Below, piece by piece: positions 3,553 through 53,062 of a stretch of 64,000 nt of DNA. Location of the stretch: positions 38,736,101-38,800,100 of the forward strand of contig CM069872.1 in assembly GCA_036172665.1 (NCBI GenBank), written 5' to 3'. Origin of the DNA: Prosopocoilus inquinatus. Taxonomy: Eukaryota > Arthropoda > Insecta > Coleoptera > Lucanidae. Positions within the stretch are counted from its first letter, which is position 1. Every line of letters begins with the position of its first letter. The notes beneath the pieces were generated by a model. That model did no database searches and was not told where the DNA came from. It was given only the letters and a program-made list of their open reading frames with translations. The position numbers were made by a program, and so were the translations under genes.

Positions 3553-3943
3553 TTCTCGAAATTTTAAGCGAGCACTAGCTTATATTTTTTATCGTTTAAT
3601 TTATATGGCATACTTATCGGCGGATTTAGGATAAACTAACAATTCGCAATGGGTTTCCAAACGAGCTCGTTGATAAAAGCGACGGTTACATTATTTTTAA
3701 AATGGGTTAAGCCCGTGTGTGTTAGAAACAGAGTTTTATCTGTAATGATTACGTTCATTGTCGTATGATGAGAAACATAGTAGTTACGATTTATAATGTA
3801 TACTTCCATGTATTTTATCAAGTCGTGGTTTTACAATTTCGCGTTTCACAAAGTGGCAGCCATCAAAAATGTTTCCAACCTTTTTATGAATGCATTGTCG
3901 GCGTGCTCGTTTCAATTAATCCTAGTTAAAGACGGTTCTGGAA
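3553..3943. other. Upstream region of the minus-strand GH35 gene
   Basis: No gene is supported here. On the minus strand the sequence just upstream of the GH35 ATG contains an A/T-rich TATAAG-like stretch (about 3578-3590), which could be a core promoter, but no initiator could be assigned with confidence. Confidence 0.4.
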
Positions 3944-4279: not shown

Positions 4280-5674
4280 TCAGTCATTATCTAGAAGCTT
4301 TACTATTGAGACAAGATTATCATTGAAAATGTCACATCTTAAACAGATGTTATTATAGATTGAACACATTACATGAACTGGAGATCTCAATAACATGTTG
4401 GTTCTTGCTATGGAAAGATAAAAAGTAGAAGATTCTCTTGCTTCGGGTCTTGGTACTAAAAAGTTTAATTTGTTTAATAGAAACGGGCAATCTACCTGAT
4501 TATGCACTAATTTATACAAAAGAGTAACAACAATACATTTTCTCCTGTGACTAAGTGATGAAACTTCGAATCTTGATAGTAACTGTTTCTGATCTAACCC
4601 TCTCTCAGGATATACACCATGTCTCTTGAACCACATATATTTGAAAAATTTTCTCTGAACATTTTCTAAGATAGAAGAATGCCATTTCAATATCGCTATC
4701 CAAGCAATCACTGAATATTCTAATCTGGACCGGATTAAAGAGAAATGAAGCATTTTTAAGGCTTTTTCATTGGTGAAAGATCTACAATTTCTAATAATAA
4801 AACCTATCATTTGATTTGATGATTTGACCAGTGACAGCACGTGTTGAGAGAAGGTAAGTTCAGAGTCAAAGATTATCCCGAGATCTCTTACAGTTGTAAC
4901 TCGAGCGAGAGGAGCCTGACCCACCTTATATTCAAATATCCACTTCTTTACGCACTTAGAGTACGTCATCACTTTACATTTATTAATATTAAGATGCAGA
5001 CTGTTTGCCGCACACCACTGATTAACTCTGTCAATGTTTAGCTGTAGAGTAACACAATCTTGAAAAGAGTTGATTGAATGGAAGAATTTGGCATCATCGG
5101 CAAACAGCTGAACTTCACAATCAACTGATTGGCATAGGTCGTTTATGTAGAGTGCAAAGAGGAGAGGACCCAAGTTCGATCCTTGAGGTACACCCGATGG
5201 CGCTGTGAAATAGTGGGATTTGAAGCCATTATGGTGGACGTATTGTCGTCTTTGGTCCAGATAAGATTTAAAAAATGTAATTAGGTTTTCAGTAAAACCA
5301 AAACCAGATAATTTATTTAACAGTATTGAGTGGCTAATGCTATCGAATGCTTTACTAATATCAGTGTAGATGACGTCAACTTGTCCTCGTTTGTCAAGTT
5401 TTTCAGTTATAAACTGTACAAAACTGGTTAGGTTAGTTACGGTAGATCGCCGTTCAGTAAAGCCATGTCGAGAAGGCGATATAAGATTTTTTACACTGGG
5501 GTAGATTTTGGCATAAATGACAATTTCAAAAATTTTAGCAAAGTTTGATAAGATCGAAATAGGCCTATAATTGGAGATAATTGTAGGATCCCCAGATTTG
5601 AGGACAGGAATAACTTTAGATAGCTTCCACTGGTGAGGAAAGCAAGCAGATCTAACAGACATCACATACATCAC
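4280..5674 (-). pseudogene. Reverse transcriptase ORF fragment of the LINE
   Basis: A 464-residue open segment with fingers and palm motifs of a non-LTR reverse transcriptase. It reads WKLSKVIPVLKSGD, then NYRPISILSNFAKIFE, HGFTERRSTVTNL, YTDISKAFDSISHSILLNKL, PSGVPQGSNLGPLLFALYIN and LFADDAKFF, followed by a thumb/connection region (VRDLGIIFDSELTFSQH, IRSRLEYSVIAW). The catalytic Asp pair is retained, but the segment lacks its own initiation context and is out of frame with the endonuclease part upstream, so it is a dead fragment of a former single ORF2. Confidence 0.87.
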
Positions 5675-5731
5675 AACAGTCTTTAATTAGAAAACTGGGC
5701 ACTTGATCATCTCCTGCAGTCATTTTGTTTT

Positions 5732-6787
5732 TCATTTTTTTATGGCACAGAGTATATCAGTTTCTTGTACCTGATTAATATTAATCGAAGTCATATTGAT
5801 TCCATTTATAGATGAGTTAACGATATCATCATGAGAGTAGACTGAGCTAAAGTAATTACCAAAGTTGTTTACAATGTCTTGGGGATTATCACTACTAACA
5901 TCATTATATTTAATAATGCCGGGGATTCGTGTACTACGATTTTTGGTTTGAATATATGACCAAAATGCGCGGGGCTCCTGTGAAAGAGATTGTTCGATGT
6001 TCAACAGATAATATTTGTGAGATTCTTTTATGCTTGCTCTTACTATCGCTCTAATACGTTTGAATTTATGATAGTAAGTGTCGAAGTTAGTACGTCTGTA
6101 TTTTTTATAATAATTATTTTTTAGTTTAATATTAGAGATAATATCTCTCGTAAACCATGGTGGGTAACTGGATTTTTTTGCTTTGAACAATGGAACATGT
6201 TCATCTAGAATCTTATATAGGATACTGTAGAATTCATTACAAGCAAGATTAATTTTAATACAGTGTTCTAGTGATAACCAATCACACTTGAGTAGAGCAT
6301 TATATAGACTCGGATAATTAGCTTTACGAAAATTATAGCATTTAAAATTTTCGTTGGCTTGAAAAATAACATTAGGTGCTGATTCCATGTCAAACTCGAT
6401 AGAGAGCGCAGGATAAAAGACATCTTCTTGGACATAAGACATAGAATCATGTCGAACATTACATTCAAAGTTAGCTAATACTAAATCTAGAAGTCGACCA
6501 AGTGAGTTATGAATATTGTTATACTGAGACATTCCCATTAGAGTTAAGAAATTTTTGAGTAACGTGCTTTGTGCATCGTTTATGGAATCTTTACAATAGT
6601 TAGGTAGATTGAAGTCACCTATGATAAATAACTTATTCATGTAGGTACAGTTCTGTTCAAAATAATCAAGTAATATCTGTAAATCGCTAACTGTTGGAGT
6701 ATGTGGTATGTACAATGTAAAAATATAAAAGTTAATGTAGCTTAACATACATTTACAACCGAGAATATCAACAGAGAATATCAACAT
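5732..6787 (-). pseudogene. Endonuclease C-terminal part and linker of the LINE
   Basis: A 351-residue open segment. The catalytic GDFN block of an EEP endonuclease is present (FIIGDFNLPN near residue 57), followed by LLDLVLAN. The usual SDH motif is degraded (the region reads DVFYPALSIEF), so catalysis is doubtful. The rest is the basic linker (RDIISNIKLKNNYYKKYRR, FWSYIQTKN) that precedes RT in Jockey/CR1-like elements. It ends at a TGA created in an A-tract next to the RT segment. Confidence 0.82.
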
Positions 6788-7054
6788 TTGGCATGATAAA
6801 AAAAGTTAGATCTCGGTTGAATACTATTGGTTATAATTTATAGATTTTACGTTACGTGAGTATAAATTAGCCCGCAAGGACTCGAAAATTTCTACAAATT
6901 GAATGTAGGCGTTTTTATTAGTTTAGGATTTCTTTGTAAAAATACCGTTAGGTATATTTTCTCACACTGCAATTTCCATGTGAAACTACGTCTTGATAAA
7001 GTAAAACTTACTATACATACATACAAAAAAAAACTAAAACATAAACAAACAAAA

Positions 7055-7190
7055 ATATTGGTTGAATTCTTGGTTTCCGGTTGGAACCGCGTGTCTCGGA
7101 TTTCTTCTACTGTCGACATTTCATTGCAGAAGAACTTCCTCAGGGATGCTGCTTCTTGGAAGTCGATGAGATCGTCTCAGTCTCTTCTTT
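7055..7190 (+). repeat. Single arm of the foldback family (GAATTCTTGGTTTCCGGTTGG)
   Basis: This matches the left arm of the 46.1-kb palindrome over most of its length: GTTGAATTC edge, GGTTGGAACCGCGT, CGGATTTCTTCTACTG, GACATTTCATTGCAGAAGAA and the TGCTGCTTCTTG segment. Here the second arm is missing. Confidence 0.75.
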
Positions 7191-7230
7191 TATTCGTCTA
7201 GCAACACTGACTACGACTCATCTATGACTC

Positions 7231-8486: not shown

Positions 8487-9279
8487 TTAGGCTGTCTTCA
8501 ATTAAGTTGCTGAAGTGACTGAAGTTGCCTATTTTCTAGTCAAGTATTGGTGATTAAGCCGCTCCCTCACCCACCGCTTGATATGTGAGTCTAGTTATTA
8601 CATTTTGTCCTAGAACAGAAACTTTTAAATTATTGATACCACTACGTACTAAATGAATACGAGTTTCAGATTTAAGTTTTTAGTTATTTAAAAGTTCATG
8701 ACTTATACAATAGGTAATTAATTTTTATGACAAACACGACGGAGATTCTGTATAACATCAAAACATCGTTTCACTCAATCATGACAATGAAATAATTTTA
8801 AAACTCGATTGAAGTGGGTCGAATTAATTAGTGACATGATCTCGTTGTGTAAGTTACAAAAATAAAACCGCAGAAATAATTTGACATTTAACCTTTTTAT
8901 GACTGCCTGACTGACACGTCCGAAGATAACTCCAAGTTAACGTCATACAAATCAGAATGTATTCGAATATTTTTTCAACGGCTGCTGTTAACGTCGTTAA
9001 TGCTAATAACATTCGAAGACGATTAATCTCGTAATCAATTTTAAATGGCCAGTAAGAGTAAGTAGCCCATGAACTAGAACTCGACAAGATAACAACACCT
9101 TTTGCCTCTCGCTCAAACCCGAACGTCCAAGGACGTCGTCTTTCCTCGTCGTGCTCAGGCTGCAATTTCTTCGAATGTTTTATGTATTCATGCAAGCCAA
9201 TAACTTTGTTTATTTACATTCCGAGTCCGTCAGTCAAAAGTTGAACAACTCTCTTTTGTTTGTGTGCTACAGTACAAAG
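8487..9279. other. Upstream region of the plus-strand GH35 gene
   Basis: No gene is supported. The frame of the GH35 gene stays open back to about 9151, with an earlier in-frame ATG at 9175. A pyrimidine-rich stretch ending CTACAG just before 9273 could be a splice acceptor, so an unseen 5' exon (possibly a signal peptide) cannot be excluded. Confidence 0.4.
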
Positions 9280-11235
9280 ATGGCTGTGATACCCACTTTG
9301 CCTTCTTTGTATGAGTATTACACGGCGGGTGGAATTACTTCCGGTTTGTCAGTGGAGCAGCCCTATTTCACCTTGAACGGGAGAAATATATCAGTGTACA
9401 GTGGCGCCACGCATTATTTCCGAGTGCCAAAAGCCTACTGGAGGGATAGGCTGAGGAAAATCAGAGCTGCAGGTTTGAACGCCATCGAAACGTACATCCC
9501 ATGGAATCTACACGAGCCTCAAGAAGGCGTCTACGACTTTGGGGACGGTGGTTCAGACATGCAAGATTTCCTGGACGTACAACATTTTCTGGAACTCGCC
9601 CAAGAAGAAGATCTCTTTGCAATAGTAAGACCAGGACCCTACATATGTTCAGAGTGGGAATTTGGGGGGTTACCAAGTTGGTTGCTGCGTGACAAAAACA
9701 TCAAAATCCGAACGTCCCAGCCAAATTTTATGAGGAAGGTCACCAACTACTTTAACATGCTCCTGCCGATTTTAGCGCTCTTCCAGTTCACTAGAGGAGG
9801 GCCCATTATAGGGTTCCAAATCGAAAACGAGTACGGCAGTATGACGGAAAAAGGCAAGTTCACTCCGGATAAATTATATCTTGAGGAACTGAGGCAATTA
9901 ATGTTGCGTAATGGGATCGTGGAACTGTTATTTACGGCGGATTCTCCGACGGGACACGGCACCGAAGGGACTTTACCGGGAGTGTTATTTCAGACTGCCA
10001 ATTTTGCTTCTAATCCAGAGGCGGAATTCAACAAGTTAAAGGAGCTCCAAAAGGACAAGCCTTCCATGGCGATGGAATTTTGGAGCGGTTGGTTCGACCA
10101 CTGGGGTGAGGCTCATAACACCAAGAACGACAACGATTTCTATAATATTTTAGATCGAATTTTGAAATATCCCGCCTCGGTAAACATGTACATGTTCCAC
10201 GGAGGAACAAGTTGGGGTTTCCTAAACGGGGCCAACATAGATTCCATCGGCTACCAACCGGACACCACCAGCTATGACTACGACGCTCCCCTAACGGAAA
10301 CCGGAGATTACACCATGAAATACGTCATGGTAAAAGAACTCATCCGAAAGTACAACCAAGTCCAAACTAGAATACCAGAAACGCCAGCAATTCAATTGCG
10401 ACGAGCTTTCCCCAACATTACAATACGCCAAGCACTAGCATTCAATGAAATCCTCGACCAAGCACCCATTAAAATCCAAAGCCAAGATGTTTTGCCCATG
10501 GAATTCTTACCCATAAATAACAATTCCGGGCAAAGTTATGGTTACATAGTTTATAGGAAAGAGGACTTAGATATTCCGGCGAATTCGACCCTCTTAATAG
10601 AAGGACGTGTTTGTGACACGGTCATGGTGCTTTTAAATGGAATGTTATTATCGAAGCCACTAACTAAAATCATAGATCTGAACGGTTTTGGATATTATCG
10701 ACTGAGAAACTCAACGTTAAATTTGGGATTGAGGCCAAATCGCGCTGCGACTTTAGAATTAGTTGTCGAGAATTGGGGGCGTAATAACTTCGGCCACCTT
10801 GACCAGTTCCGACAATTCAAAGGTCTGTGGCAGGGTGGAATTTACTTGAATAACGAGCAGTTATTCGATTGGGAAATCGTGCCCTTGGAATTCAAGAAAT
10901 CGTGGACGACCAATCTGGTAGGTTGGCACAAGCCTGTGAATCCCTGGATTCCGGCACCGTCGTTATACAAGGTTACTTTCGTAACGCAGCAAATTCAAGA
11001 TACCTATTTGAATATGCAACGGTGGACTAAAGGGGTGGTTATTGTGAACGGGTTCGTTTTGGGTAGGTACGCGTCGATCGGTCCACAGCAAACTCTCTTC
11101 TTGCCGGGGCCGCTTCTGCGCAACGGGGTTAATGAAATAGTCATATTTGAACATTTCTACCCCTCCGATAAAGTGATGTTTTCCGCGCATCCCATTTATC
11201 AGTTAGCGACCGATTATAGTTTACGTTTTATATAA
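9280..11235 (+). CDS. Beta-galactosidase, glycoside hydrolase family 35 (GLB1L2-like), intronless paralogue
   Basis: A single-exon ORF of 651 residues from the ATG at 9280 (context AAAGATGG), chosen because it aligns with the start of the paralogue at 1585-3552. Counting from that start, catalytic residues by family analogy are Glu184 (QIENEYG) and Glu266 (AMEFWSGWFDHW). TYIPWNLHEP, RPGPYICSEWEFGG and YMFHGGTSWGF mark the barrel; GRVCDTVMVLLNG and VVIVNGFVLGRY mark the C-terminal beta domains. Length is typical of GH35. The function is hydrolysis of terminal beta-galactosides. As in its partner, no signal peptide is visible in the single exon, although a spliced leader exon is possible. An AATAAA lies 44 nt after the stop. 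The head-to-head arrangement with the paralogue suggests a local inverted duplication, later split by transposon insertions. Confidence 0.93.
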   Translation: MAVIPTLPSLYEYYTAGGITSGLSVEQPYFTLNGRNISVYSGATHYFRVPKAYWRDRLRKIRAAGLNAIETYIPWNLHEPQEGVYDFGDGGSDMQDFLDVQHFLELAQEEDLFAIVRPGPYICSEWEFGGLPSWLLRDKNIKIRTSQPNFMRKVTNYFNMLLPILALFQFTRGGPIIGFQIENEYGSMTEKGKFTPDKLYLEELRQLMLRNGIVELLFTADSPTGHGTEGTLPGVLFQTANFASNPEAEFNKLKELQKDKPSMAMEFWSGWFDHWGEAHNTKNDNDFYNILDRILKYPASVNMYMFHGGTSWGFLNGANIDSIGYQPDTTSYDYDAPLTETGDYTMKYVMVKELIRKYNQVQTRIPETPAIQLRRAFPNITIRQALAFNEILDQAPIKIQSQDVLPMEFLPINNNSGQSYGYIVYRKEDLDIPANSTLLIEGRVCDTVMVLLNGMLLSKPLTKIIDLNGFGYYRLRNSTLNLGLRPNRAATLELVVENWGRNNFGHLDQFRQFKGLWQGGIYLNNEQLFDWEIVPLEFKKSWTTNLVGWHKPVNPWIPAPSLYKVTFVTQQIQDTYLNMQRWTKGVVIVNGFVLGRYASIGPQQTLFLPGPLLRNGVNEIVIFEHFYPSDKVMFSAHPIYQLATDYSLRFI

Positions 11236-17335: not shown

Positions 17336-18587
17336 AACGTAACTGAAATCATTTCACCTATGCCTGATAAAAAGACAGGCCAGCAATTTGGAGTGGGGGA
17401 GTGTGCGACCGTTTTTATTCTCGAACCTGCAACTCCAAAATTGAGCTGCATCTTAAAAATTTATGCGCATCTTTTGCTAGCTCCTGTGTCTAGAATATAC
17501 AGGGAAATAGACGCGACGCCGACGTAGTGAAGTCAAACGATACCTACTTTCATTCATTTATTATTTTTTGTTCACATATTTTCCGGGTCTTCAAATCGCT
17601 TAACGTACATAAAGTAATACAGACGTTTAAACCTGCAACACTGCATGTCCAAATACATTTTTGATAAAGTTAGGCCTTGGAAGTGTAAACGTGTGTCATA
17701 ACTTACATCAAGCAGTTGTCAAGCAAATGAATAAATTGCTGTAGTAATTTCAGACAAACGTTTTGTCTTCCATGGCCTACCTTTATTAAAAATTTATCTG
17801 AACATAATATGGTATCTCACAGGGTTATCCATGACTGATTTTTAAGCTTGTAGTCAAAGTTTAAAATCCCATTAAAGACCGACTGTACAATACCAAATTA
17901 AATTTAAGTTGAAGCTTAAAGCATTAATAACAAATTACTATTTCTACAGATTAATTGTTGGCTCAAAGTTAATCTGAAGTTGTACATTTATTGTAAAAGG
18001 AGCAAGAAACAAAAAAAGGCTACCTATTGAAAGTTAAGTGATACTAACAGATTCTTTGTGTAAATAATGCAAATAAGCGACCTTGATATCGCGTTACCTT
18101 AACTTTGGCATCGTTTAGTGACAAAAACAGTAGATCTCCTTGTATATAACAGGTGCGCTTCTCACGTGCTAGTAGTAGTATAATATTTTTCCAGCAAGTC
18201 TTGATTTATCTTAAGTATTTATTTAATATCGACTTTTAATATTCCTAATTATTGAAGTACTGTAGTTTTGAATATAAATATCGACATTTTGTTTATTTTA
18301 TTTATTAAGGGGGTCATTCACGAAACAGGACTTGCAAGTCGTTAGCGATGCTGCAAATTGCAAATCTTTTGCAATGCAGTGACGTCGTCATGGTAACTAC
18401 ACGCTCAAAACAGTTTTTGCGCGATTTTTGCAAATCAGACTGAAAGGGAAGAGCTAAATATAATGGAACATCGACGTTAATAGGTTTCGGAAGTCTTGTT
18501 CTTCTTGTCACATCGTTTTCAATCAAACCTTTTACCATAAGATCGTAATTCTGTTTAATTTTCTTTAAACGAGGTGTTCTATTTTTG
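17336..18587. other. Intergenic stretch without recognised genes
   Basis: AT-rich sequence. The short minus-strand ORF near 18314-18538 shows no family motif. Nothing else supported. Confidence 0.35.
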
Positions 18588-18656
18588 TTATCCTACTGCA
18601 ATGTCAGGTCAAAAAGTGATCGTAGGATGTCGCTGTTTTATCTATTCATTATTAAT
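18588..18656 (+). repeat. Fragment of the hammerhead (retrozyme-like) repeat
   Basis: About 66 bp containing CCTACTGCAATGTCAGGTCA and GATGTCGCTGTTTTATCTATTCATTA, the same segment that opens the repeat unit at 26.3-27.2 kb. It lacks the ribozyme part. Confidence 0.75.
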
Positions 18657-22500: not shown

Positions 22501-25500
22501 ATTTATATTATACTTATTTGCAAAAATGCGAAGGAAGTAGATTTTAAAGGTGAATCCCCCAAATATCACGGATGTGCACCTAGTGTTTGTTAAATGAAAT
22601 ACGTAATCCCATTTGCAAACGGTTGACGTAGGTGCTAAGTCTTTAAGCTGTTTGAAACATATCCTACTGTTAATCTCTCTATGGCAGTGGAGCTTTAAGA
22701 TGGTGTACAAAAGCACATTTACCGAAAGCGTAATTATTTATACTTAAGCGCACAATTCGTATGGTTCGGCTGAAACTTTAGCGGTAACTCAAGCTCTAAT
22801 ATGCATCGAAAGTTCTAGGCTTCTACATCTGTTTATCAATTAATTTTTCTAAATAAAAATACAAAGGAAACTTTGACTGTTACCTAGTCCGTATAACTTT
22901 GCTTATTTTTATTTTGTGAAAACAGTTTTAATAACACTTCACGAGGTTTCAATATTTCTTACTTCTCGTACGAAAATTCTTCTATCACTTTTAAAGTTTT
23001 GATTAACTACAGTGTTACTGATAAAACTAGTAGTAAAATTACATCATCATTTTTACATGTTTAATGTTTTACTTACCATTAAGTAATAATTCATAGAATT
23101 GTTTGTGATATTAAAAATTTACTTTAAATATCATTAAATTTTAACGTAAGAGTGATGTAATTTTACCACCACTTTCGTCAGGGTATGACTGCGTAAACGT
23201 TGCGTTAAAATAAATGCAAGATAATGTCAGATTTAATAAAACGTTGATCTCCTTTTCATATAGCTCACAGCAACTTCAATAAAACGTGCGGCATCGATGA
23301 TACGAATGCAAGCGTCAACGTAATAACATGAAAAGTATCCAATATGGTTTGAAAAATGCATCTAAATTGAATAATACCACAGTATAAACAGCTTCTAAGC
23401 GTTTCTTCGGTGGCAAAATAACGAGTTTTATTTTTACGATAGACGGTATCTGGCGTTTGTCTTCCAATAATAACATCGGCACATTTTCATTTCGGATAGT
23501 CGAACAGAAATAAGTAATATGTTGCCGATTTTTTTTTTATGAGGAAATAAAATTTTTATAACTCTGTTTCACGCGTCGCGACGTTTGAATTCTGGCTGTG
23601 AGAAGAAGATTGGTTGGATGAAATTAATAAATTACCAATTAAAGATTGCGGCCTAAATTTACAGATCAACGAGGAAGTTTTAATTTGTTTTTAATTATAA
23701 AGCGTGGCTTCGGGGCAAAAAATTAGGATTTCGGCTCTGTAATCTGCGGTCGCCTTTGTTTCGGTGATAACCGATTATTGAAAAATTAAGAAACCGCAAG
23801 TTGGTGCTACAAAATCCGGGGTATCTGCATTTAACAGGCGGTTGTTAGGTGCAAAGTGAACAAAGCCAAAGGGCTTATATTGTGGTTTGCTTGTATAGAA
23901 TGTTGTACTTACCATGTACATAGAAAAGTAAAACACTCGTGTATTGGCAAGAGTTTAATTATCGATTCAACGCGACTTAATACCTAATGTGTTTGTGGAT
24001 TTAGTATTATGTATTTATGTAAGATAACCTAATAATAACTTATAAATTGAATTCTAACGATATCTAAAGCCTTTAACTTTTCTATGCACTCGATGGTTTG
24101 CATAAAAGTTAGGATTTTTGCGAAGAATTATCATCGATTGTTACAGTCATTAGAACAATACCTACTCTTTAATTGATTTAATTTTGATGGCCTAAATTCA
24201 TGAAACTTTCGGTTGAACTATTTGTAACAAATTCTTAATTATTAATACCTGGGAAAGTTTGATAATACTGCTTTAACCGAGTTATACTGTACCGTTCATC
24301 TTGAGAAAACTGTCAATCTACAGTGGAATTTGGTTAAAAAATCATTATAAAATTAAGTGCAGAATTTTAAACCTGTAATACAGCGTTTCTCAAAACTTTT
24401 AGATTTCGTGACTCCTTTTTGAGCTGTGTTATGATTACCCCTTAAGTTGTCGAGAGAAACAAAAAGGTAACATGGCTTCTTTAAAAGATTAGAAATACTC
24501 CTCACGAAGCTAGCAATCGATAGTGAAACGTTGAGTACTCTTTCCAATTTTAATAGTGTCCGTTTTAATTTAAAAAAATAATTTTTTTTGAGACTTAATT
24601 TATGACCATTACGTTTCATAAGAATAATATTTTCCTTTTTGAGACTAAATTTATGACCATTACGTTTCATAAGAATAATATTTTCTTTTTTGATACTTAA
24701 TTTATGACCATTACGTTTCATAAGTGACAGTAACACCATATTTATTTTATTGAAGCTTGTTTGCGTATCCTACAATAAACTGACACATTATTTTCTAAAA
24801 CTAAGACTAAACATGGGAATAATTATGTCGCAAGTTCAGATTTAAAAAAAAATTCACGGTATATGTACAGCCTTGAGAATTAAATTTTGATCGTCATTGT
24901 CAACGAAAACGTCGCGTCGGTTTTAAGCCAAGAAATTAGAAATGTTCATTTGCGTTTTACCAGGAAAATGTGAAGATAAATTAAGAGATTTTTCCTACGA
25001 TTCAAAATTAAGACACAAAAATTTATTGCTTGCGACTGTATAAACTGGTATATGCAATCTCTTGTGAAAAATAATATGGTAAATTAGTTGCGATTTTCTA
25101 AAATTTATTCTGCTGCGCTCTCTTTGAAGGTTTATGTGCCCCTCCAGGGGAGTACGCCCCACAGTTTGGGAAACGCCGCTGTGATGCATCACCATAAATG
25201 GGAACGATTAAACGTACAAGTCCTTAATAAAAATTTCTCACATTTAGAGAAAATCGCAGTTGAAGATCGGGCAAGAAATAATCGTACGTCTATGTCTTTG
25301 AGGTAGGTCAAGAAAAGAAAATTTGATTGGAACAATAAACAGAAATGCAATCGAGCGGTGATCTTTGCCGAAGTCGAGGGGCCAATAAAAGTGTTGTTTT
25401 TAATGTCAAAATAAGACATTTTACAGCTGAGCGAAAGAATTTGCTTCATTTTTTATGACTATGACACACAATTTACTGCTCCGTATTCTTTGGAATCAAC

Positions 25501-26102: not shown

Positions 26103-26113
26103 AAGATATTACA
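26103..26113. repeat. 11-bp target-site duplication AAGATATTACA, copy 1
   Basis: Identical 11-mers lie at 26103-26113, 26342-26352 and 27180-27190. They bracket two consecutive insertions, which is hard to explain by chance. Confidence 0.75.
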
Positions 26114-26341
26114 TATAAATAGTGAGAAAACCCCTCGACCACATTAATTCACTGAAAGCGAATACGTATTTCGGTAACGAAGTTACCATCTTCAGCGCTA
26201 AACTGATATTGTTTAGCGCTGAAGATGGTAACTTCGTTACCGAAATACGTATTCGCTTTCAGTGAATTAATGTGGTCGAGGGGTTTTCTCACTATTTATT
26301 TGGATTACAGCCACAGGTTTTGTGTTGCTTTGTGATTATTG
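26114..26341. mobile_element. Short insertion carrying a perfect 89-bp-arm palindrome with hammerhead-like motif
   Basis: Bases 26115-26203 are the exact inverted complement of 26211-26299, with a 7-base spacer; about 40 bp of tail follow. The insertion is bounded by the same 11-bp sequence on both sides (26103-26113 and 26342-26352), consistent with a target-site duplication. Each arm contains a hammerhead-like motif (see separate entry). Perfect arms imply a very recent origin or gene conversion. Confidence 0.8.
26219..26245 (+). ncRNA. Hammerhead-like motif (non-canonical core), right arm of the palindrome
   Basis: Reads CTGAAGA at 26219-26225, one extra T, a stem II of GGTAAC/GTTACC around a TTC loop (26227-26241), then GAAA (26242-26245). 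The sequence before and after can form stem I (AGCG with CGCT at 26253-26256), and ATACGTAT can form stem III. A mirror copy lies in the left arm on the minus strand. The core has one nucleotide more than the hammerhead consensus between CTGANGA and stem II, so cleavage activity is uncertain. Confidence 0.45.
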
Positions 26342-26534
26342 AAGATATTACATAGATAAAATAGCGACATCTTACGATCGCTTTTTGACCTGACATTGCA
26401 GTAGGATAGACAAATTGAAGCGGGATTTGCTCCTAATAAGTCCCCCATGCAAGGCGGCCATGCTTGCTGTCAAAGCATAATGAAAGTTTTTTTAAAAAAA
26501 TTGTGCAAATCGTTCTTGATTGCAGTGAAAACCT

Positions 26535-26597
26535 CGAGCAGTCTCTGTACAGCTGTTTCAGCCCTGCTTGGGACTTCTTCAGCAGAGGCGTAGCTCG
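26535..26597 (-). ncRNA. Type I hammerhead self-cleaving ribozyme
   Basis: On the minus strand all consensus parts are present. CTGAAGA lies at 26582-26576. Stem II is AGTCC/GGGCT (one G-U pair) around CAAGCA, and GAAAC follows at 26559-26555. A short stem III (AC with GT, loop AGCT) precedes the cleavage trinucleotide GTA ending at 26548. Stem I is CTCTG/CAGAG followed by an internal loop and CGAGC/GCTCG. Predicted cleavage lies between 26548 and 26547. The internal loop in stem I and the six-base loop II are where stabilising tertiary contacts are expected. Confidence 0.85.
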
Positions 26598-27076
26598 ACA
26601 TTCCCACTGCAAACAAAAACGACTTGTCCAATTTATTCGCAATTGCGATGGATGTAAGAGTAATGAATAGATAAAATAGCGACATCTTACCATCGCTTTT
26701 TGACCTGACATTGCAGTAGGATAGAAGAATTGAAAATTGAAAATTTGTGCAAATCATTCTTAATCAAGAACGCCATGCTTGCTGTCAAAGCATAATGAAA
26801 GTTTAAAAAAAAAAATTGTGAAAATCGTTCTTGATCAAGAATAATGAGTTTTTAAAAAAACTTTCATTATTCTTGATCAAGAACGATTTGCACATTTTTT
26901 TTTAAACGTTCATTATGCTTTGACAGCAAGCATCGCCGCCTTGCATGGGGGACTTATTAGGAGCAAATCCCGCTTCAATTCGTCTATCCTACTGCAATGT
27001 CAGGTCAAAAAACATCTTACATCCATCGCAATTGCGAATAAATTGGACAAGTCGTTTTTGTTTGCAGTGGCAATGT

Positions 27077-27139
27077 CGAGCTACGCCTCTGCTGAAGAAG
27101 CCCCAAGCAGGGCTGAAACAGCTGTACAAAGGCTGCTCG
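27077..27139 (+). ncRNA. Type I hammerhead self-cleaving ribozyme
   Basis: CTGAAGA at 27092-27098; stem II AGCCC (27099-27103) with GGGCT (27110-27114) around CAAGCA; GAAAC at 27115-27119; stem III AC/GT with loop AGCT; cleavage triplet GTA ending at 27126. Stem I pairs CCTCTG (27086-27091) with CAAAGG (27127-27132, one C-A mismatch) and CGAGC (27077-27081) with GCTCG (27135-27139). All invariant core bases are intact. Predicted cleavage between 27126 and 27127. Confidence 0.86.
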
Positions 27140-27190
27140 AGGTTTTCACTGCAATCAAGAACGATTTGCACAATTTTTTAAGATATTACA

Positions 27191-30156: not shown

Positions 30157-31150
30157 TATATTGGGTGTCCCATAAGGTACGGGCGAAATTAAAAAGGTAG
30201 TTAGAGAAGATCAAACAAAGCGTTTTTTCTTAATAAACTTTTGGTAAAAATCAATATTCAAAAGTAGTGGAGACTGTGGTTTGCAGTACAATATAAAACG
30301 GATTAAAACTCCTAGCTTCAATGTGTTTTTTGAGTCTATGTATGTATTTCGGCAGATGATTTCTTTGCTTCGTAATTACGAAGCAAAAAGGACATCTACT
30401 GAAGATGGAAGCATAGCTGTCGAAATACGTATATGGGCTCAAAAAAGCATACTGTGGCTAAAAGTCAATACAATATAAAAAGTTACAATACTTTAAAATG
30501 AAATTAATTAGCAAGCAAAAGTTACTATACCTGTAGTAATATTTTACGTTTTAAATTCAAATTTGCGGTGTTTAAAAGTTAGTTAAAAAGTAGTTTAAAA
30601 GAAACTATTTAAAAAAATGTAGACACGTAAAAGTTACGCCTATTTAATATTTTCTTTAAATATCCAAAGACATTCTGTGAATGGCAGTTTTGATAAATTT
30701 AGAGTTTATTTAATAATAAAACGTGAAATAAGTTTCATTAATTAAGAAGATACATCTGTAAAGAAGAAATTAAGGAACTTAAACTGCTGCAACTTTCTTT
30801 TTATTGGGGTTTGACAACGCCCACTTCATACAGGCCTGTTTCGTTAGGTGGGAAAATACCTCGACTTCAAAATTGATTCATCTGAAATGCGGTTCAGCAC
30901 AGAAATTCACCATTTTAATTTATCTTTCCGTCCTTATTAGTAATCGGAGCGCATAGATTTTCACGGCTCAGCAGCGAAACGCTTGCGTAGCAGGCTGAAA
31001 CTGGATAATACCCTAAGGTCTGATATTCCTACGCGGTGACTCAGGCTTGCTATTGAAGACGGTGTTGGTATTGTTGGTCAAGAGCGTATTAAGAAGATAT
31101 CCTGTAGCTGCCGTTTCAATCTCCTCCTACGTTTTCAGACACCCAGTATA
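30157..31150. repeat. Possible ~1-kb element with TATAYTGGGTGTC ends
   Basis: TATATTGGGTGTCCC at 30157-30171 faces GACACCCAGTATAGTATA at about 31138-31155 in inverted orientation. No coding region lies between. The same short end motif recurs elsewhere (35757, 53548, 54913, 57732), so pairing of these particular ends is tentative. Confidence 0.35.
30319..30450. repeat. Tail-to-tail repeat with hammerhead-like motif
   Basis: A left piece (TTTTTTGAGTCTATGTATGTATTTCGGCAGA) is the approximate inverse of the right piece around 30399-30450. The right piece reads CTGAAGATGGAAGCATAGCT then GTCGAAATACGTATATGG, the motif also found at 52878. The centre is a short palindrome (GCTTCGTAATTACGAAGC). Confidence 0.6.
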
Positions 31151-31520: not shown

Positions 31521-31673
31521 TAATTTCGTCATATAAAATAGCGACATCTTACTATCGCTTTTTGACCTAACATTGCAGTAGGATAGACAAACAAGCAGGG
31601 CTGAAACAGCTGTCCAGAGGCTGCTCGAGGTTCTCACTGCAATCAAAAACGATTTGCACAAAATTTTTTTTAA
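31521..31673. repeat. Rearranged fragment of the hammerhead repeat
   Basis: The first half (to about 31591) matches the minus-oriented unit start (AAAATAGCGACATCTTACTATCGC, CATTGCAGTAGGATAGACAAA). The second half (CAAGCAGGGCTGAAACAGCTGTCC onward) is in plus orientation and begins inside loop II of the ribozyme, so CTGAAGA is missing and no active hammerhead remains. Confidence 0.75.
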
Positions 31674-44943: not shown

Positions 44944-46098
44944 CATAATCTGTTAAAAAAAATTTTCTATTTGTTCAATATTCGTTCGTCAGTTCTCTTT
45001 TTCCCCCAAAAATCTCATTGCTTCATTTTCTCACATTCTGACGATATTTCCATGGAATCTATTCGATTTCATCTTTTCTATATTCAATAATTCCATTTAT
45101 TTATTTATGTTATTCAATATCTTCTATCTTTTCCACCATGTAGGCTTCTTAGAATATTTTTATTTCTCTCATACACACATAAAAATGTTTGGGATTAATT
45201 GTAATCTGCCTAATCGGTGTTAAATGTGGAAAAAAAATTGCTTGAAAAATTGTTAATCTTTATCTAATTTGGCGTTATTGATATCTTTTCCCAACTAAAT
45301 TGTGTCTAAAAGTGAGTATTTACTCCAACAAGGATAAGCTCTACTCCTACTTTTGATTGGTAAACATTGTAACTCCAGGAAACACCGAAAAAGTGTTCCT
45401 TGGCGTCCGAAAAGTGTTAGAATTAACTCCAAATTTTTATCAGTGTACTGTTTCATTTATGAGCTAAATGGTCTACAAAATACGTTTTCATAATTTTGGC
45501 TTTAGAACTTTTAGAATGAATAGATGAAGTGTGCTATATCATCATTAATATTGAAATTAATTTTTTTATTGATTTTAAATTTACAAGAATTTGATTTTTC
45601 TTCTTATAGTCTTGATGGGCTTGTTACTTCTTTAGCATATTTATTCATTATTTCGCAGGCTAAATAAGTAGCAGATCTGTTGTAAATAAAGTTTATTATG
45701 TTAAAGTAAAGAATATAAAGCAAACTTATATTCAACTTTTTGAACCAAATGATTTTATCACTAAGCGGGTATTCTGCCAGTAGATTTTCAACCTTTTTAT
45801 ATGCTATGCATATTCCAACCTGTAATGATTTTTCTCTTTGCTTTTTAAATGCTAATCATTCGCGCCTGCTGAGCATTGATGTCTCCTATGGTATATTGCA
45901 TTCTGCTCGTATAAGTTAACTTCCTGGAGAATATTTTTAAACAGTCAGCGTTACTTCTGCCTTCAAATTTGGATTGTTGGCTTCAATTCGATTTCATTTG
46001 AGGGTCCTACTTCAGCAGCAACTGGTGAAGCACACGTATTCGCTATGCGCTAGCTTTGTCTAATAGCCATTTTACATTTATCAAAATTTGTGTAAAAT
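44944..46098. other. Intergenic stretch without recognised genes
   Basis: AT-rich; nothing recognised. Confidence 0.35.
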
Positions 46099-46395
46099 CG
46101 TTGAATTCCTGGCTTTCGGCTGGAACCGCGTCTCTCCTCGGATTTCTTCTACTGCCGACGTTTCATTCTCCATTGCAGAACAACGTCCTCGAGGCTTCTG
46201 CTGCTGGTTGTGGTGCTGCTGCTGCTGCTGGTGGTCTTGCTGCTGCTTCTTGTAAGTCGTTGAGACAAGAAGCAGCAGCAAGACCACCAGCAACAGCAGC
46301 CCTGAGGAAGTTCTTCTGCAATGGAGAACGAAACGTCGACAGTGCAAGAAAGTCGAGGAGAGACACCGTTCCAACCTAAAGCCAGGAATTCAACG
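46099..46395. mobile_element. 297-bp foldback element with CTG/CAG-rich arms and hammerhead-like motif
   Basis: CGTTGAATTCCTGGCTTTCG at the left is mirrored by AAAGCCAGGAATTCAACG at the right. The arms continue through GGAACCGCGTCTCTCCTCGG and a (CTG)n/(CAG)n tract around a short centre near 46258-46268. The right arm carries CTGAGGA, stem II GTTCTTC/GGAGAAC and GAAAC (46302-46334). Overlapping poly-Gln/poly-Leu ORFs are artefacts of the triplet tract. Single-arm relatives lie at 7055-7190 and 601-655. Confidence 0.78.
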
Positions 46396-47780
46396 ATGGA
46401 CGACGGCCGCGGCAGCCTTCAAGTTAAACTTTGTGTAACATCTTGTACAAAGTGAGAGAAACAGGCTACCATAGTTAACGTACATTGGTTGAATCCATAC
46501 TTCTTTGCACAAGAAATTATAACAAATTTTGATAGATGTAAAATAGAGAACAAACAATATGCAGCGTACATACACTGCCCCCTATCCCAAATTCGTATGC
46601 ATGAGCCGCTGCTGTCCTACTTCATTCCAAAAACCACTTACACCTCATCTAGTTAGTTAAGTCTATGAATTCTAGGTTGTACTCGTTGTTTACCATTATT
46701 TCAAAGACAGCGATGACGTGTCACCTATAGATCGGTTTTTCTTTGCGTGGTATTTTATAGTTTCCTATTTTTCTTTTTTATACTCGTTTATCTTCCTTTT
46801 AATATATTTGGAAAAATTCATGCGGGTTACATCATTTACCTTTGATTAAGGAATATATTAAAGAGCAACAAAGATAATTTTACTCTATCAGCAGCGAGCA
46901 CCTGCTATTGCACACATCGCGTCAATATTGCACGACGTTATATGATAAAAGAAGAAAGACACACACTTATTGCACGTACCAGTAATATGTGATACAACCT
47001 GTATATTAAATAATTAAATTGTGTCATATATTTGTTTTAATATGGTTGCATAGGTATTTTTATCCAAGATAATACTTAGTTTTGTTTGTGCAATCTTTAA
47101 CTTTTTACATTTCTATAACAGTATACCGTTTGAGCACATCAGCTAGGTTTGTCGCGTGGTAGCTTCTTGTGCGTTCGGGTCTAATGGGGAACGAAGGCAC
47201 ACCTGCACCATTGCGTAACAGCGTAATACATACTCTAAAAGACTCCTTTTCACACAATCTCGACCGACCTCTTGTGTACTCTCCTACCTGCCTCCCTTTC
47301 TTCATCTTATTAGCTCAGTGATCTAGTTTATTTTATTATTAATAATATTTGGAAATATCATTACCATTTCTTTCTTTAGTTTCTAGAAATTCATCTGTTA
47401 GTTTTTCGTTTTAGTTTCATACTTTTCTCTTAACATGTTGATATTTTTTTATTTTTACAGTTTTATTTTTAAGTTTTTAAGTTTGAATTCTATAAACGTT
47501 GTTTCAGTTACTAAATAATCTCTGTTTTAAATAATTTACCAAATGGCTTCCTAGATTTGTCTTCTTTTTCGTTACGAAACAAATTGAATCTAATACTATT
47601 TAATTCTCAGGTTTCAAATCTCTGATTTATTTTCATTTTTCTCTATCTACTTTATCTATATCTGCCTTATCTACTTTTTCCTATCTTCCTTAACTTTTTT
47701 GTCTTTATCTTCTTTCATAGAATACATTTACCTTCTTTATGTTTTGCGCACAGCACCATTTCTTATTTTGTAATTAGTGA
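46396..47780. other. Intergenic stretch without recognised genes
   Basis: No coding motif. Part of 46.9-47.78 kb may belong to the LINE 3' region that ends at 47930. Confidence 0.3.
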
Positions 47781-47930: not shown

Positions 47931-48678
47931 TAATTTTATTTAGCAACTGTTACTTGATGTATATACCCCAGTGTTGCCAATCAACTCAACCAAAAATTCC
48001 TTTTTCGGCATACAGTATTTCCCTACAATTTAAATAGGAAGTTAAAGTTAAAAAATATTATATAAAATTTAAATTTACTTTGTATGTTAATAATTATTTT
48101 TGAAATAATGTATGTTAATATTATTTTTTTAATATTTTTTATTTTAAAAATAATTACTAACATACATAAGTAAATTTATATGAGTATCATTTTTCTGCAA
48201 TTAACTGTTAAAACAAAAGAAAGAGAAATGTTAAAACAACCTAACCTTGCACTTTGATGCGCTTTGCCGCAATCAAATTTCGACGTCCTTATCTTATGGG
48301 GGCGTTTAATTATAATTAGAAAAATGAGAAAATAGGCCTGAAATAAAAGATTATCTTGATATTCAAAGTAAAAAGATAGTAGCGTTTTGGTTACATTTAT
48401 CAAAATTTGTTTGTAATTTTATTTTTCGACTTTTACGCGATCGTCTCTTATTTATGGATTATTGTTTTTAAGTTTGAAAGTCGTCCCTTTTTAATTTTTT
48501 TTGCAATCGTCATTTATTTCCATCTTCAAAAATTACTGTCGTTTTCTGATTCTTTCGTCATTGTCGTTTTGTTGTTTGAAAGATCATCGCGCAATAGTTT
48601 TGAATTAATACTTTGTTTTTCTTCTCTTTTTTTCTTTTCTCCTGAAATTATTTCTTTTCCTTTCGTAAACATTACGAC
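47931..48678. other. Low-complexity T-rich intergenic stretch
   Basis: T-rich sequence keeps one plus-strand frame open (48407-48730), but the product is a low-complexity Phe/Leu/Ser string with no family motif. A small palindrome lies near 48066-48177. Confidence 0.4.
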
Positions 48679-49050
48679 TAGCTTAAACAGCAACAACCTA
48701 CGATCGCTTTTTGACCCAACATTGCATTAGAATTGACAAATTGATGTCAGTTTGCTATGTAATAAGTTAACCCATGCAAGGCCATGCTTGCTGTCAAGGC
48801 ATAATGAAGTTTTAAAAAAAATTGTTGCAAATCGTTTTTAATTGCAGTGACTCCCTCGAGCAACCTCTGTACAGCTGTTTCAGCCCTATTTGGGGCTTCA
48901 TTAGCAGAAGCTTAGCTCGAGAGTTCCACTGCAAATCAAAACAACTTGACCAAGGATATTCGCAAATGCGATGTAATGAATAGCTTAAACAGCGACAAAC
49001 TACGATCACTTTTTGACACAACATTGCATTAGGATTGATAAATTGAAGCC
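48679..49050 (-). mobile_element. Retrozyme-like hammerhead repeat, decayed dimer (~302-bp period)
   Basis: TAGCTTAAACAGC-type unit starts occur at 48679 and 48981. The unit matches the 26.3-kb family: CAACATTGCATTAG, CCATGCAAGGCCATGCTTGC, the ribozyme region at 48857-48919 and the GATGTAATGAATAG end. Divergence from the 26-kb copies is substantial, so it is an older insertion. Confidence 0.78.
48857..48919 (-). ncRNA. Hammerhead ribozyme relic with mutated core
   Basis: Stem I (CGAGC/GCTCG and TTCTG/CAGAG), stem II (AGCCC/GGGCT), GAAAC and GTA are all kept. The core reads CTAATGA instead of CTGANGA. The lost G corresponds to invariant G5, so self-cleavage is not expected. Confidence 0.75.
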
Positions 49051-52000
49051 AGAAAAATAACGATTTGCAACAAAATTTTGTAAATATTATGATTGTCATT
49101 GCTTTTTTGTGGTTTCCCGTCGTGAAAGTTACAATCGTCATATTATGTCCTTTTCGTTCTGGAATTAATTAATCAAAAATTTTTTGCACTTCTTTCTGTT
49201 TCGCAAATAATTACACTCGTCATTTGTTTTCTCCTGCTTTCTGTTTTCAGAAATTTTCATTTTGTCAATAAGTATTATGATTTATTATAGTGATTTCTTT
49301 TATTGGCTTTTATTAAGTGCGAATTATTGTTAGCCTTGAATGTTCGTTATTATTATCTTTTTTTATTTTTAATTTTCTCGATTGTCAAAATCGTTTTTGT
49401 TACAATTTTTCAGAAATCAAACAATTACAATTTCTTTTGAAATTTTGATTTTTCCACTTACATCAAAAATATTCTTGTTTTTGTTTCTGATTGTTTACCA
49501 TTTTTCTGTCTTAATAAAAGAAGTTGAAAAATTCCCTAGATCTTAATGAGCTTTTGCAATTTTTACCTTTTCCCTTTTGTTTGAAATTATCCCAAGATTT
49601 AACGACTTTTTTCCTAAGTTAGCAACACTGATACACGCTCGCTTTTTTCCTGCATAAAATTCAACTTTTTTGCTAATATTTCTAAGTCTAAAAAAATGTA
49701 TCTGTAATTTTAATCCTCTGAATTCTAAAAGAAACACAGACAAAATAGCTTCTCTTTTTCACTTTTTTGCAATTTTCGTTATTAGTTTTGACAAAAAACG
49801 CAAACTAGATGAATTTTGGTCGGAATTAAAAAAAATTTATTGTATTTAATTTGTTCGTCGTTACAGACCTAACCTAATTAATTTAAAGTTTTGCTCCGGA
49901 AACAAACATGTATTAATTAAAATTTAACGAAAATGTACCTTTTCTTCTCGGTTGCAGTTCCAACGTTGGCATTACTACGCTACTACTATTCGCTTACTGT
50001 TGCGTCTGCCGTTGTTTTCATGTGAATGTTGCTTAATTTTTTGATTTATATTTATTTCAGTACATTTTATGTGTTACTATTTCCAAATGTAGAAAGTTAT
50101 TTTTGTTTAACCCCCAAAATAATTAAGTGAGCGTCAAGTAAGTATAAAATCTGGTGTCAGCCATTACCATATATTGATATTGTACTTTCTGTCATAAGTA
50201 AATTTGAATTCACATTCACGCAGTACAACCTATTATTCAAATGAAACGAAACTAATTAAACTTTTTTCGAGCGAGTGCGAAGTAAGGTTTATTAGTATTT
50301 TCGACAAACAGCGAACAAAAAAAAATGCCCACCTTCACGTTGACGCGTCCCTAATTTTTCATTTGGCTACACGCTAATAAAGACCCCAAAACTTTCATCC
50401 TAAAAAATTTTCAACTTTCATCCTAAAAAATTTTCAGTGCGGCTTACGCACTCCGGTTTTACGCAGAGAAACGTGAAGCGCGAGTGCTGAAAACGTTTTC
50501 ATGTGGCGGGGGAAATCCGTGCCGAGTTTAGTGCAAATAATATCTCGTGTCATATGCAGGGGGTAAAATAAAAATTGTCCGGGGAAGTTCATTAAAAGAA
50601 AAACTACTTTTCACAGCTTTACGTTTTGTTCGGTGCAATTTCGTTCGAATGAAAACTGAAGTGAATGCACTTCCTCTAAATATTGCTATGTGTTCCGTGG
50701 GCTGAGGCTTTAATAGTTTCACGCTTATTGCGTTTCAAATTAAAAAAATATAGAGTATTTGTGATGAATTTTTCGAGTGTTTGACAATACTGAGCTTAGT
50801 AGTTAATTTGCGAAAGTCTGGATTTTATTGTAGATCTGATTTCAAGAGGCAAGTTATTTCGGTAACTTAATTACATGGAGCACGATACGTTCGGAATTCT
50901 TCTATTATATCGATAATCCAATAAAATATTGTTGCTGCGTCAAAATCTTCACAGAGAAAATAACAATAATCAGATTAGTATTTTATCAGGTGGGAAATCA
51001 CAAATCACACTGATCCAATAAGACGTTCCGTATTCGTAAGATTTCACAAATCCCTAAATAAAGAACAGCTTCTCTGCGTTATAATGTAAAAAGCCGCTAA
51101 GCGAAGTCCGATTTTCTCATCAAAAAAAGCTTAGGCGAGTAAACTTTGATTTCACAGCGGCAATAAAAGATGGGACAAATCGATGTTGTTTAAGTTTCTG
51201 CCCCTAATATACATCACCTAGACGGTGTCAGGGAGGAAGATGAAGTTTAGACCGTTGATTGCAAGCACAAATTTCAGCTTAATTTATAAAACTGAGTTAC
51301 AAGAACGTGAACCATAAATAACAAACAGGAAGGGCCCTAGAATAATAGGGTACATTCGTTATGTTAAGATACTAAACTCACTTGGAGTTTCACGTGAGAT
51401 TGGTTTTCTCCATTTTGATCTGTTTGGGTAAGAATTGGGAGTTACATCAATAATTTATTTTTAAATATTTCCAATCTTTAAATGTTTGAGCAGCAAAATG
51501 TTGTAGTTTTCTTTTCTAAGTAAATGAATAAAGTAATGAAATTAAGATATGAACACGTATAGATATAATTTTTATAACTCTCATCTGTACAGACAACAAA
51601 GAATTAATTTCGTGCTTGTAACGTATCAAATTTAATCTCTCCCTTGGAAGTGTACAATTTTGTGCTTTGTAACAAAAAATAAAAAATGGAAAACAAAAAC
51701 AAACATTCGTGTGTGTACTTAATTTAGGAGAGTTGTATGAAATTTACGAAATGAATTAATAAAAAGCGTCGCTTTATGGCCCACAATTTAATAAATGACT
51801 GTCCGAGATGTAGTAGAAAATTAAATTCTATTTTTCGCATATTTCAGTTTAATAATAACACCACCTGAAGCTTGCTCACCTAGGTTCAACGCAAATATTT
51901 ATCCTCATCGTGGGAAATTCGCAGCGTGGTCTCACTTTATTATACAGAATTGAGTGTTAATAATTATCCATTATTTTTAGTGCTTGCGATCATGTATGTG

Positions 52001-52840
52001 AAGAGCAGTGATTCGACAGTATCGGAGATCCCTACACAAACACTTTAGTCGAGTAGAGTCTAGTTTTGAAGTGCCCTAGGAATGTACCAGGTGTACTTAG
52101 AATTTGGAACACCTGATGCAAATTGCCAGTAACATATTTAGAATATTGTTCACTGTTTAACTTCATGATCCTTAAATTAGAGATCTTTTTGGCGAACGGT
52201 ATTACGTCATTTCATATCTTTCACAAAATTGTTTACCAGCATGATTACATTTTTGTATATTCCATTCCAGTTAGCTAGTAGATATCAATTGATATCGAAA
52301 GAACGTGGATTAAATACGCGACTATGCAAAAGAAGAACGTAAACACAGATTGATTCAAGCAATCAGAGGCTTGCGTATCAAGTTTCTTTCGCCATTGTTA
52401 TCTCAGAATAAATAATACTTCAAGTCGGTGCGTTTTCCTCGGTAATCAGCAACAAAAGGAAATGCACAATAACATGTTGTGTGTTTGAAAGATTTTCATT
52501 ATTTGATAACTTTCTATGGTGGCTTCACTTTTGGACACTGATTGTAATGTAATTGCTTCGTTAGCACGCAAGAAATTTACAAAACCGAAACGAGGTTCAC
52601 TCTAGCGTTCACGTGTATTTGTTATTGGTAAATACATCATTAGGCGCAATAAAAGTCCTATTTTAAACTTTTTAATTTAAGTGCATTTACTTTTTTTCTA
52701 GTAAATCTAAGTAATAAAGGAACGGTTGCACTAGAAAGGTTTCTTTTTAAATAAAATTTAATACATTTTCAATATTAATTTGTGAATGTACCAGATTTAT
52801 TAGTTGCGTATAAGTTAACAAATATTATAATATTCATATT
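49051..52840. other. Intergenic stretch without recognised genes
   Basis: AT-rich. A GC-richer patch at about 50.43-50.53 kb has no open spliced model. Confidence 0.35.
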
Positions 52841-52869
52841 CACTTTTCTTGTGATTAAGAAGTAAAGAA

Positions 52870-52945
52870 GTCATATACTGAAGACGGCAACATAGCTGCC
52901 GAAATACGTATGTAGTATCAAAAAAGCACATTATGGTAGGAGATC
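52870..52945 (+). repeat. Hammerhead-like repeat fragment
   Basis: CTGAAGA (52878-52884), an extra C, stem GGCA/TGCC and GAAA (52901-52904) are followed by TACGTATGTAGTATC. It is a relative of the 30.4-kb and 26.2-kb motifs. Confidence 0.5.
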
Positions 52946-53062
52946 TAATTCAATTTTTATTGAAATATTATACTGCATCTGTATTTTTTGGTATAAATCT
53001 GCATTTGTCTTAATATGGAGTACATATGTTTTTTATATTTTGCACCCTACCTAGGTGCCTGT

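Follow-up and report, generated by a model that had tools for sequence, protein, structure and literature searches.

The two type I hammerhead motifs that lie in opposite orientation in this DNA are the two arms of a single head-to-head insertion of a non-coding retrozyme of ~310 nt, here called element B. Intact Penelope elements of the same architecture are present in the same genome, and one target was used by both a Penelope piece and a retrozyme. Judged from the sequence, retrozymes of this family are probably mobilised by Penelope-type machinery that primes synthesis on both target strands, a reading to which we give a probability of about three in four. The inverted hammerhead pair would then be best read as a mark of integration, not a device.

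The inverted hammerheads belong to one insertion

The first-pass annotation had placed both hammerheads inside one repeat. They do belong to a single element, but this element is larger than was claimed, spanning 26353-27179 with a target-site duplication, and it consists of ~1.5 minus-strand units and one plus-strand unit. Its features are given below with those of the neighbouring element A and of two further retrozyme copies in the window (the whole 64-kb stretch of DNA that was analysed).

26103..26113, AAGATATTACA, copy 1 of the target-site duplication, on the left border of element A
26114..26346, element A, a terminal Penelope piece in head-to-head form; its last 5 nt overlap the duplication
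26195-26163 (minus strand) and 26219-26251 (plus strand), minimal hammerheads of element A, one per arm
26342..26352, duplication copy 2, AAGATATTACA, common to elements A and B
26353..26835, minus strand, minus arm of element B, ~1.5 retrozyme units with a period of 315
26353..26385, minus strand, outer terminus of the minus arm at start site 2 (~195 nt beyond the predicted hammerhead cleavage), shared with other loci of the family
26582-26548, minus strand, type I hammerhead core (with stem I 26532-26599), predicted cut 26548/26547
26836..26875, palindrome at which the two arms of element B meet head to head
26876..27179, plus strand, plus arm of element B, one 278-nt unit and 26 nt
27092-27126, plus strand, type I hammerhead core (with stem I 27075-27142), predicted cut 27126/27127
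27150..27179, plus strand, outer terminus of the plus arm at start site 1 (53 nt beyond the predicted hammerhead cleavage), likewise shared with other loci of the family
27180..27190, duplication copy 3, AAGATATTACA, right of element B
31533..31669, retrozyme copy C, short head-to-head remnant with duplication TTTAATTTCGTC and the same two end sites as element B
48678..49072, retrozyme copy D, older, ~76% like element B, with a broken hammerhead core and an imperfect duplication

The 11-mer AAGATATTACA occurs three times on the plus strand of the window, all at element borders, with no fourth occurrence. Element A, which has inverted arms, a 'tail' on the right arm and outer ends at unit positions 84 and 128, is an insertion separate from element B and lies between duplication copies 1 and 2. 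The two units of element B have a GC content of 0.38 and 0.45, and a Pfam scan of the one open reading frame over the element revealed no domain, hence neither a reverse transcriptase nor a GIY-YIG domain; element B is a retrozyme inserted like a Penelope, not itself a Penelope. The two passes of its minus arm differ by a replaced block of ~30 nt, and different unit variants are joined in the element. The left end of copy D lies at site 2, and its short right arm was read by eye, the automatic scan having seen the minus arm alone. The retrozyme counts do not include a fragment at 18584-18651.

The hammerhead motifs and their conservation

The two type I hammerheads in opposite orientation claimed by the first-pass annotation were found at the positions listed above. 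Both strands carry the core, a stem II of AGCCC or AGTCC paired with GGGCT, the loop CAAGCA, GAAA, a C-AGCT-G stem III, a GTA triplet and a two-part stem I; an invariant core with an open-ended stem I, the mark of type I, is present in both motifs. A descriptor calling for an intact core, at least 4 pairs in stem II and at least 5 of 6 pairs in stem I matched exactly these two cores in the window, and produced no match in 200 dinucleotide shuffles of the window (both strands). With a stricter descriptor the minus copy was the sole match, because stem I of the plus copy contains a C.A mismatch. Variation between the copies had been said to keep pairing, and the stems do mostly pair; however, the inner stem I has one C.A mismatch in each copy, at the third pair from the core in the plus copy and at the sixth in the minus copy. 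Stem III of both hammerheads is a single base pair with a palindromic loop, as it is in the axolotl hammerhead HHR_Amex1, which is a poor self-cleaver in monomeric form and a better one when dimeric (PMC7229834). When the element B motifs were folded as monomers, the hammerhead fold lay 8.4 (plus) and 6.9 (minus) kcal/mol above the predicted minimum.

Lack of a covariance-model match, together with lack of self-cleavage, had been named beforehand as evidence that would speak against the hammerheads, and the first half of this pair is what was found: Rfam models yielded no hammerhead match on either strand at the gathering cut-off nor up to E = 10, and the list up to E = 10 held mostly miRNA-type palindrome matches. 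The absent match may reflect a limit of the models for a one-pair stem III. Exact-pattern scans for the hammerhead in viral and prokaryote collections found nothing.

To this the family can be added. From 41 of the 42 family loci described below, 68 complete hammerhead segments were cut, matches of less than 80% identity or not spanning the motif being dropped, and the core was kept in 59 of the 68. Among the 52 distinct segments, position N7 is A in 44, T in 5 and C in 3, the cleavage-site base is A in 37 and C in 15 and never G, and all other core positions have at most 2 exceptions each; variation falls mainly at the two positions that a hammerhead leaves free. Furthermore, the stem cells of these 52 segments are paired in 96-98% of cases, compared with 36-50% when slid by 1-2 columns. 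The family alignment thereby supports the hammerhead motif despite the missing Rfam match.

A dispersed retrozyme family with two fixed ends

One genome of 649.6 Mb was searched, and the results concern its best-scoring copies. Weak matches that covered nothing beyond the palindromic hairpin of the hammerhead were discarded. The best 40 of 1661 first-look candidates were scored, and 39 loci outside the window together with elements B, C and D gave a set of 42. The minus arm lies left and the plus arm right in 27 of these, the reverse order was seen in 0 of 42, and the other 15 were not scored as two-armed. Three loci (L026, L036 and L046) contain a plus piece followed by a minus piece; L036, in which the middle flank copy is strongly eroded, was counted once and may represent two neighbouring head-to-head insertions near one target.

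A duplication score of at least 10 was taken as a duplication, the 99th percentile of a null of 1500 random pairs being 9. Such a score was reached in 21 of the 27 head-to-head loci. Among these 21, both ends could be classified in 20, and in every one of them (20/20) one flank is at site 1 and the other at site 2; in the 21st, L017, one outer end is at neither site. The six two-armed loci below this score are L012, L020, L027, L032, L034 and L043. Of these, L032 ran beyond the fetched stretch, and its longer version, L085, has a 12/12 duplication and one end per site. Two of the 15 other loci carry a duplication, L038 and L046, and the ends of L046, read by eye, are site 2 on the left and site 1 on the right. 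The query itself ends at site 1, and site 1 ends are therefore favoured by selection; this does not explain site 2 on the opposite flank.

The arm junctions differ between loci, and so the insertions look independently formed. Arms ending at site 1 and at site 2 show no systematic difference in length (the site 2 arm is longer in 7 of 17) in a comparison that left out five two-armed loci with duplications. Tandem spacings near 310 occur in several loci, the period being 310 in L085. The term retrozyme, used in the first-pass annotation, is borne out by tandem units of ~310 nt, a GC content of 38-45%, type I hammerheads, many dispersed copies, the absence of any Pfam domain from the one reading frame over element B, and target duplications that are mostly 10-15 bp and in many cases perfect, thus longer than 4 bp. 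Metazoan non-LTR retrozymes are described in the same terms: dispersed, non-coding repeats in tandem, 170-400 nt long and low in GC, which have canonical type I hammerheads and duplications of more than 4 bp, insects being among the hosts (PMC7229834). Plant LTR retrozymes are non-autonomous like the element B family, and theirs is a hammerhead-processed circular RNA (PMC4918200); unlike element B, they have type III hammerheads, LTRs and 4-bp duplications (PMC7229834).

Two further claims concerned the host and the state of the family. An insect host agrees with the nearest named relatives of a beta-galactosidase gene in the window, which among the best 120 of 7987 matches are scarab beetles, Trypoxylus at 70% and Onthophagus at 68%. 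That the family is active or recently active is plausible from the sequence but unproven: the 59 kept cores, the many perfect duplications and an array of 6.7 units without differences speak for it.

Penelope elements of the same genome follow the same end rule

The search with element A gave 817 candidates, of which the best 40 were scored and all 25 places outside the window were taken. The 40 scored copies are 98-100% identical over the matched part, and 13 of them lie within one array. In the window element A is a terminal piece alone; its sequence also occurs in loci with a reverse transcriptase and GIY-YIG reading frame, known from L081, L082 and L083, each of which carries a 788-aa frame with RVT_1 and GIY-YIG domains. 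Two of the three proteins share 781 and 784 of their 788 residues with the third, and the arms of L081 and L082 are 100% complementary. With this reading frame, head-to-head arms, a tail on one arm and a duplication, the element A family is a Penelope family.

Two-armed structure was seen in 16 of 32 stretches of this family, always with the minus arm first and never in the reverse order. Eleven of the 16 have a duplication score of at least 10, and in all 11, which include L074 with its mixed internal order, site 1 (unit position 80-89) marks one end and site 2 (118-133) the opposite one; of the remaining five, four continue into the body of the Penelope and have a right end that is not that of an element. 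Published Penelope copies carry terminal repeats in inverted order, in most cases head to head, one of which bears a 31-bp tail (PMC3846280), and the purified anole Penelope protein extends both target strands and uses two adjacent internal RNA start sites that bound the tail (PMC11167929). Endonuclease-bearing Penelopes thus resemble the retrozyme and Penelope insertions described here in their head-to-head arms, duplications and junction palindrome, and likewise in the tail on one arm, the two internal reverse transcription starts and the extension of both strands (PMC3846280, PMC11167929). The genomic copies echo, in particular, the both-strand extension and the two start sites of the purified protein. 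Unlike these elements, element B has no Penelope protein, a fuller hammerhead and ~140 nt between its start sites. The terminal repeat of element A holds a minimal hammerhead of the sort found in Penelope-like elements, whereas element B has the full two-part stem I and loop II. Such minimal hammerheads, described for Penelope-like elements by Lunse 2017 and by Cervera and de la Pena 2014, reportedly cleave as dimers.

Target duplications of the retrozymes have a mode of 12 and are 86% AT (n = 23, comprising the 21 two-armed loci, L038 and L085), and those of the element A family have a mode of 13 and are 72% AT (n = 12, comprising the 11 stretches above and L083, read by eye); the fetched loci are 66% AT. 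The retrozyme duplications are shorter and more AT-rich, and therefore a different Penelope may act as the helper; pieces of other Penelope families are present in the window. Element A sequence was found in 1 of the 42 element B loci (that of the window), and element B sequence in 1 of the 25 element A regions (L069), where the two lie at different sites, 77 bp apart, and the retrozyme has its own duplication. Across these 42 loci and 25 regions, retrozymes showed no trend to insert beside element A Penelopes.

Other Penelope-type insertions were seen in the window. A head-to-head insertion at 46097-46425 has arms of 130 nt that are 85% complementary, the right arm being longer, a minimal hammerhead at 46302-46337 (plus strand) and an imperfect 17-nt duplication. 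Another, at 30299-30465, has a minimal hammerhead at 30399-30431 (plus strand) and a 15-nt duplication with one mismatch. Single-orientation pieces lie at 52832-52962, with a minimal hammerhead-like core at 52878 (plus strand) and a 10-bp duplication, and at ~7060-7200, with such a core at 7143 (minus strand), where no duplication was found. The sequence before retrozyme start site 2 (26353-26385) is GTCGCTATTTTAT and that before Penelope start site 1 (L056, unit 70-84) is CTCACTATTTAT; their likeness, seen by eye, could be a shared start signal.

A Penelope-type insertion route and its alternatives

In the route that we favour, the family RNA of ~310 nt would be released by its own type I hammerhead, as predicted from the motif, then presumably circularised, and would serve as template for a Penelope-type reverse transcriptase/GIY-YIG protein. 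This protein would cut both strands of an AT-rich target ~10-15 bp apart, and each freed 3' end would act as a primer; synthesis on one target strand would begin at start site 1 and on the other at start site 2, which lie 53 and ~195 nt, respectively, beyond the hammerhead cut. Both cDNAs would then meet head to head, leaving inverted arms with sense 3' ends outward and a target duplication. The architecture, the fixed end sites, the rule of one site per flank and the duplications can be read directly from the genomic copies; we infer from them a Penelope protein acting in trans, a helper family, a circular template and self-cleavage in the animal. In favour of this route, elements A and B share the 11-bp duplication, a single case of a shared target. 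Against it stand the ~140 nt between the retrozyme start sites, as opposed to 30-40 bp in Penelope, and the joining of different unit variants in element B, which is unlike a simple walk round one circle.

Two arrays bear on circular RNA as the template. L085, a single retrozyme insertion flanked by the 12/12 duplication, holds 3.74 + 2.98 units of 310 nt (6.7 in total) with 0 differences in 2083 bases, a count that omits 41 junction bases and 8 outermost bases of the minus arm. L056, a single Penelope-type insertion with a 13/13 duplication, holds 9.35 minus and 5.45 plus units of 248 nt (14.8 in total) with one difference in 3669 bases. Its 248-nt unit is a stretch of the terminal repeat of L081-L083 (251 nt, with a 3-nt overlap) closed on itself, and it therefore looks like a non-coding Penelope deletion derivative that spreads as retrozyme-like arrays. 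Several rounds of copying round a circle from both target strands would explain both arrays simply; linear multimers or later amplification could also have produced them.

The template on this insertion route might instead be a linear RNA multimer, or a series of RNAs linked by template jumping, and we regard this as a serious competitor that falls a little short of an even chance. The replaced ~30-nt block between the minus-arm passes of element B fits such a template, as does the insertion in vitro of hammerhead mutants of the anole Penelope RNA, from which it follows that cleavage was not needed there (PMC11167929). However, the near-identical units on both arms of L056 and L085 are simply explained by one circle, and would otherwise call for a multimer with uncut hammerheads in every unit. 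In its broadest form, the route would make animal retrozymes satellites of Penelope, whose protein, perhaps as a predicted dimer, copies a ~310-nt circle from two fixed start sites, one per cut strand and for several rounds if needed; the odds for and against this form seem to us evenly balanced. Were it true, each genomic insertion would be a head-to-head record of two opposed rolling-circle cDNAs.

Movement of the retrozyme by a LINE, with inversion by twin priming, is unlikely. A LINE-like reverse transcriptase frame is present in the window, and twin priming likewise leaves 3' ends outward; however, the start points of twin priming should lie scattered through the interior, and the retrozymes end at the same two sites in 20 of 20 loci, have no A-rich tail and share their end rule with Penelopes of the same genome.

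A functional two-ribozyme unit is another candidate, with transcription of both strands and RNA processing by each hammerhead, on the model of viroid-like RNAs that carry ribozymes in both polarities. Both cores are intact, but the inverted arms belong to a general insertion pattern with variable lengths and junctions, and in a transcript of the whole insert 34/35 (plus) and 35/35 (minus) hammerhead bases are predicted to pair with the antisense copy, which makes this possibility very improbable. Because of this antisense pairing, and with one complete hammerhead per strand, element B is no obvious source of unit-length circles. The opposite orientation of the hammerheads follows from the mode of insertion of the element, and the idea of two hammerheads working together was set aside as superfluous.

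Long inverted arms and a duplication would also fit a DNA transposon, of the foldback or another type, with hammerheads in it by coincidence, but this is hardly tenable: the two outer ends of element B do not match as inverted copies, an arm may contain several tandem units, the junction of the arms varies from locus to locus, and no transposase domain was found in the four window reading frames scanned; this candidate was rejected on the mismatched outer ends and the differing junctions. Chance hammerhead-like sequence, which the missing Rfam match might suggest, is scarcely credible given the empty shuffles and the constraint pattern in 52 copies.

Relation to known elements and other features of the window

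Retrozymes and head-to-head Penelopes are both already known, and their shared signature on retrozymes is provisionally new. Metazoan retrozymes are described as tandem repeats (PMC7229834), and head-to-head arms with two fixed ends would set the element B family apart; a literature search, with subscription literature largely outside it, found among the matches listed no paper joining retrozyme with head-to-head. Penelope has been named a strong candidate for the autonomous element that moves animal retrozymes (PMC7229834). This genome makes that candidacy directly testable, because its intact Penelopes and its retrozyme have in common the head-to-head arrangement with one site per flank and, in one case, the target as well.

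Apart from these elements, the window contains a LINE-like remnant at 4280-6805 (minus strand), with an RVT_1 reading frame and a neighbouring frame that has a below-cut-off endonuclease match. Beta-galactosidase-like genes lie at 1585-3579 (minus strand) and 9073-11235 (plus strand), the second with a glycosyl hydrolase family 35 domain, and a tandem repeat of 2.7 copies of a 51-bp unit lies at 24585-24724.
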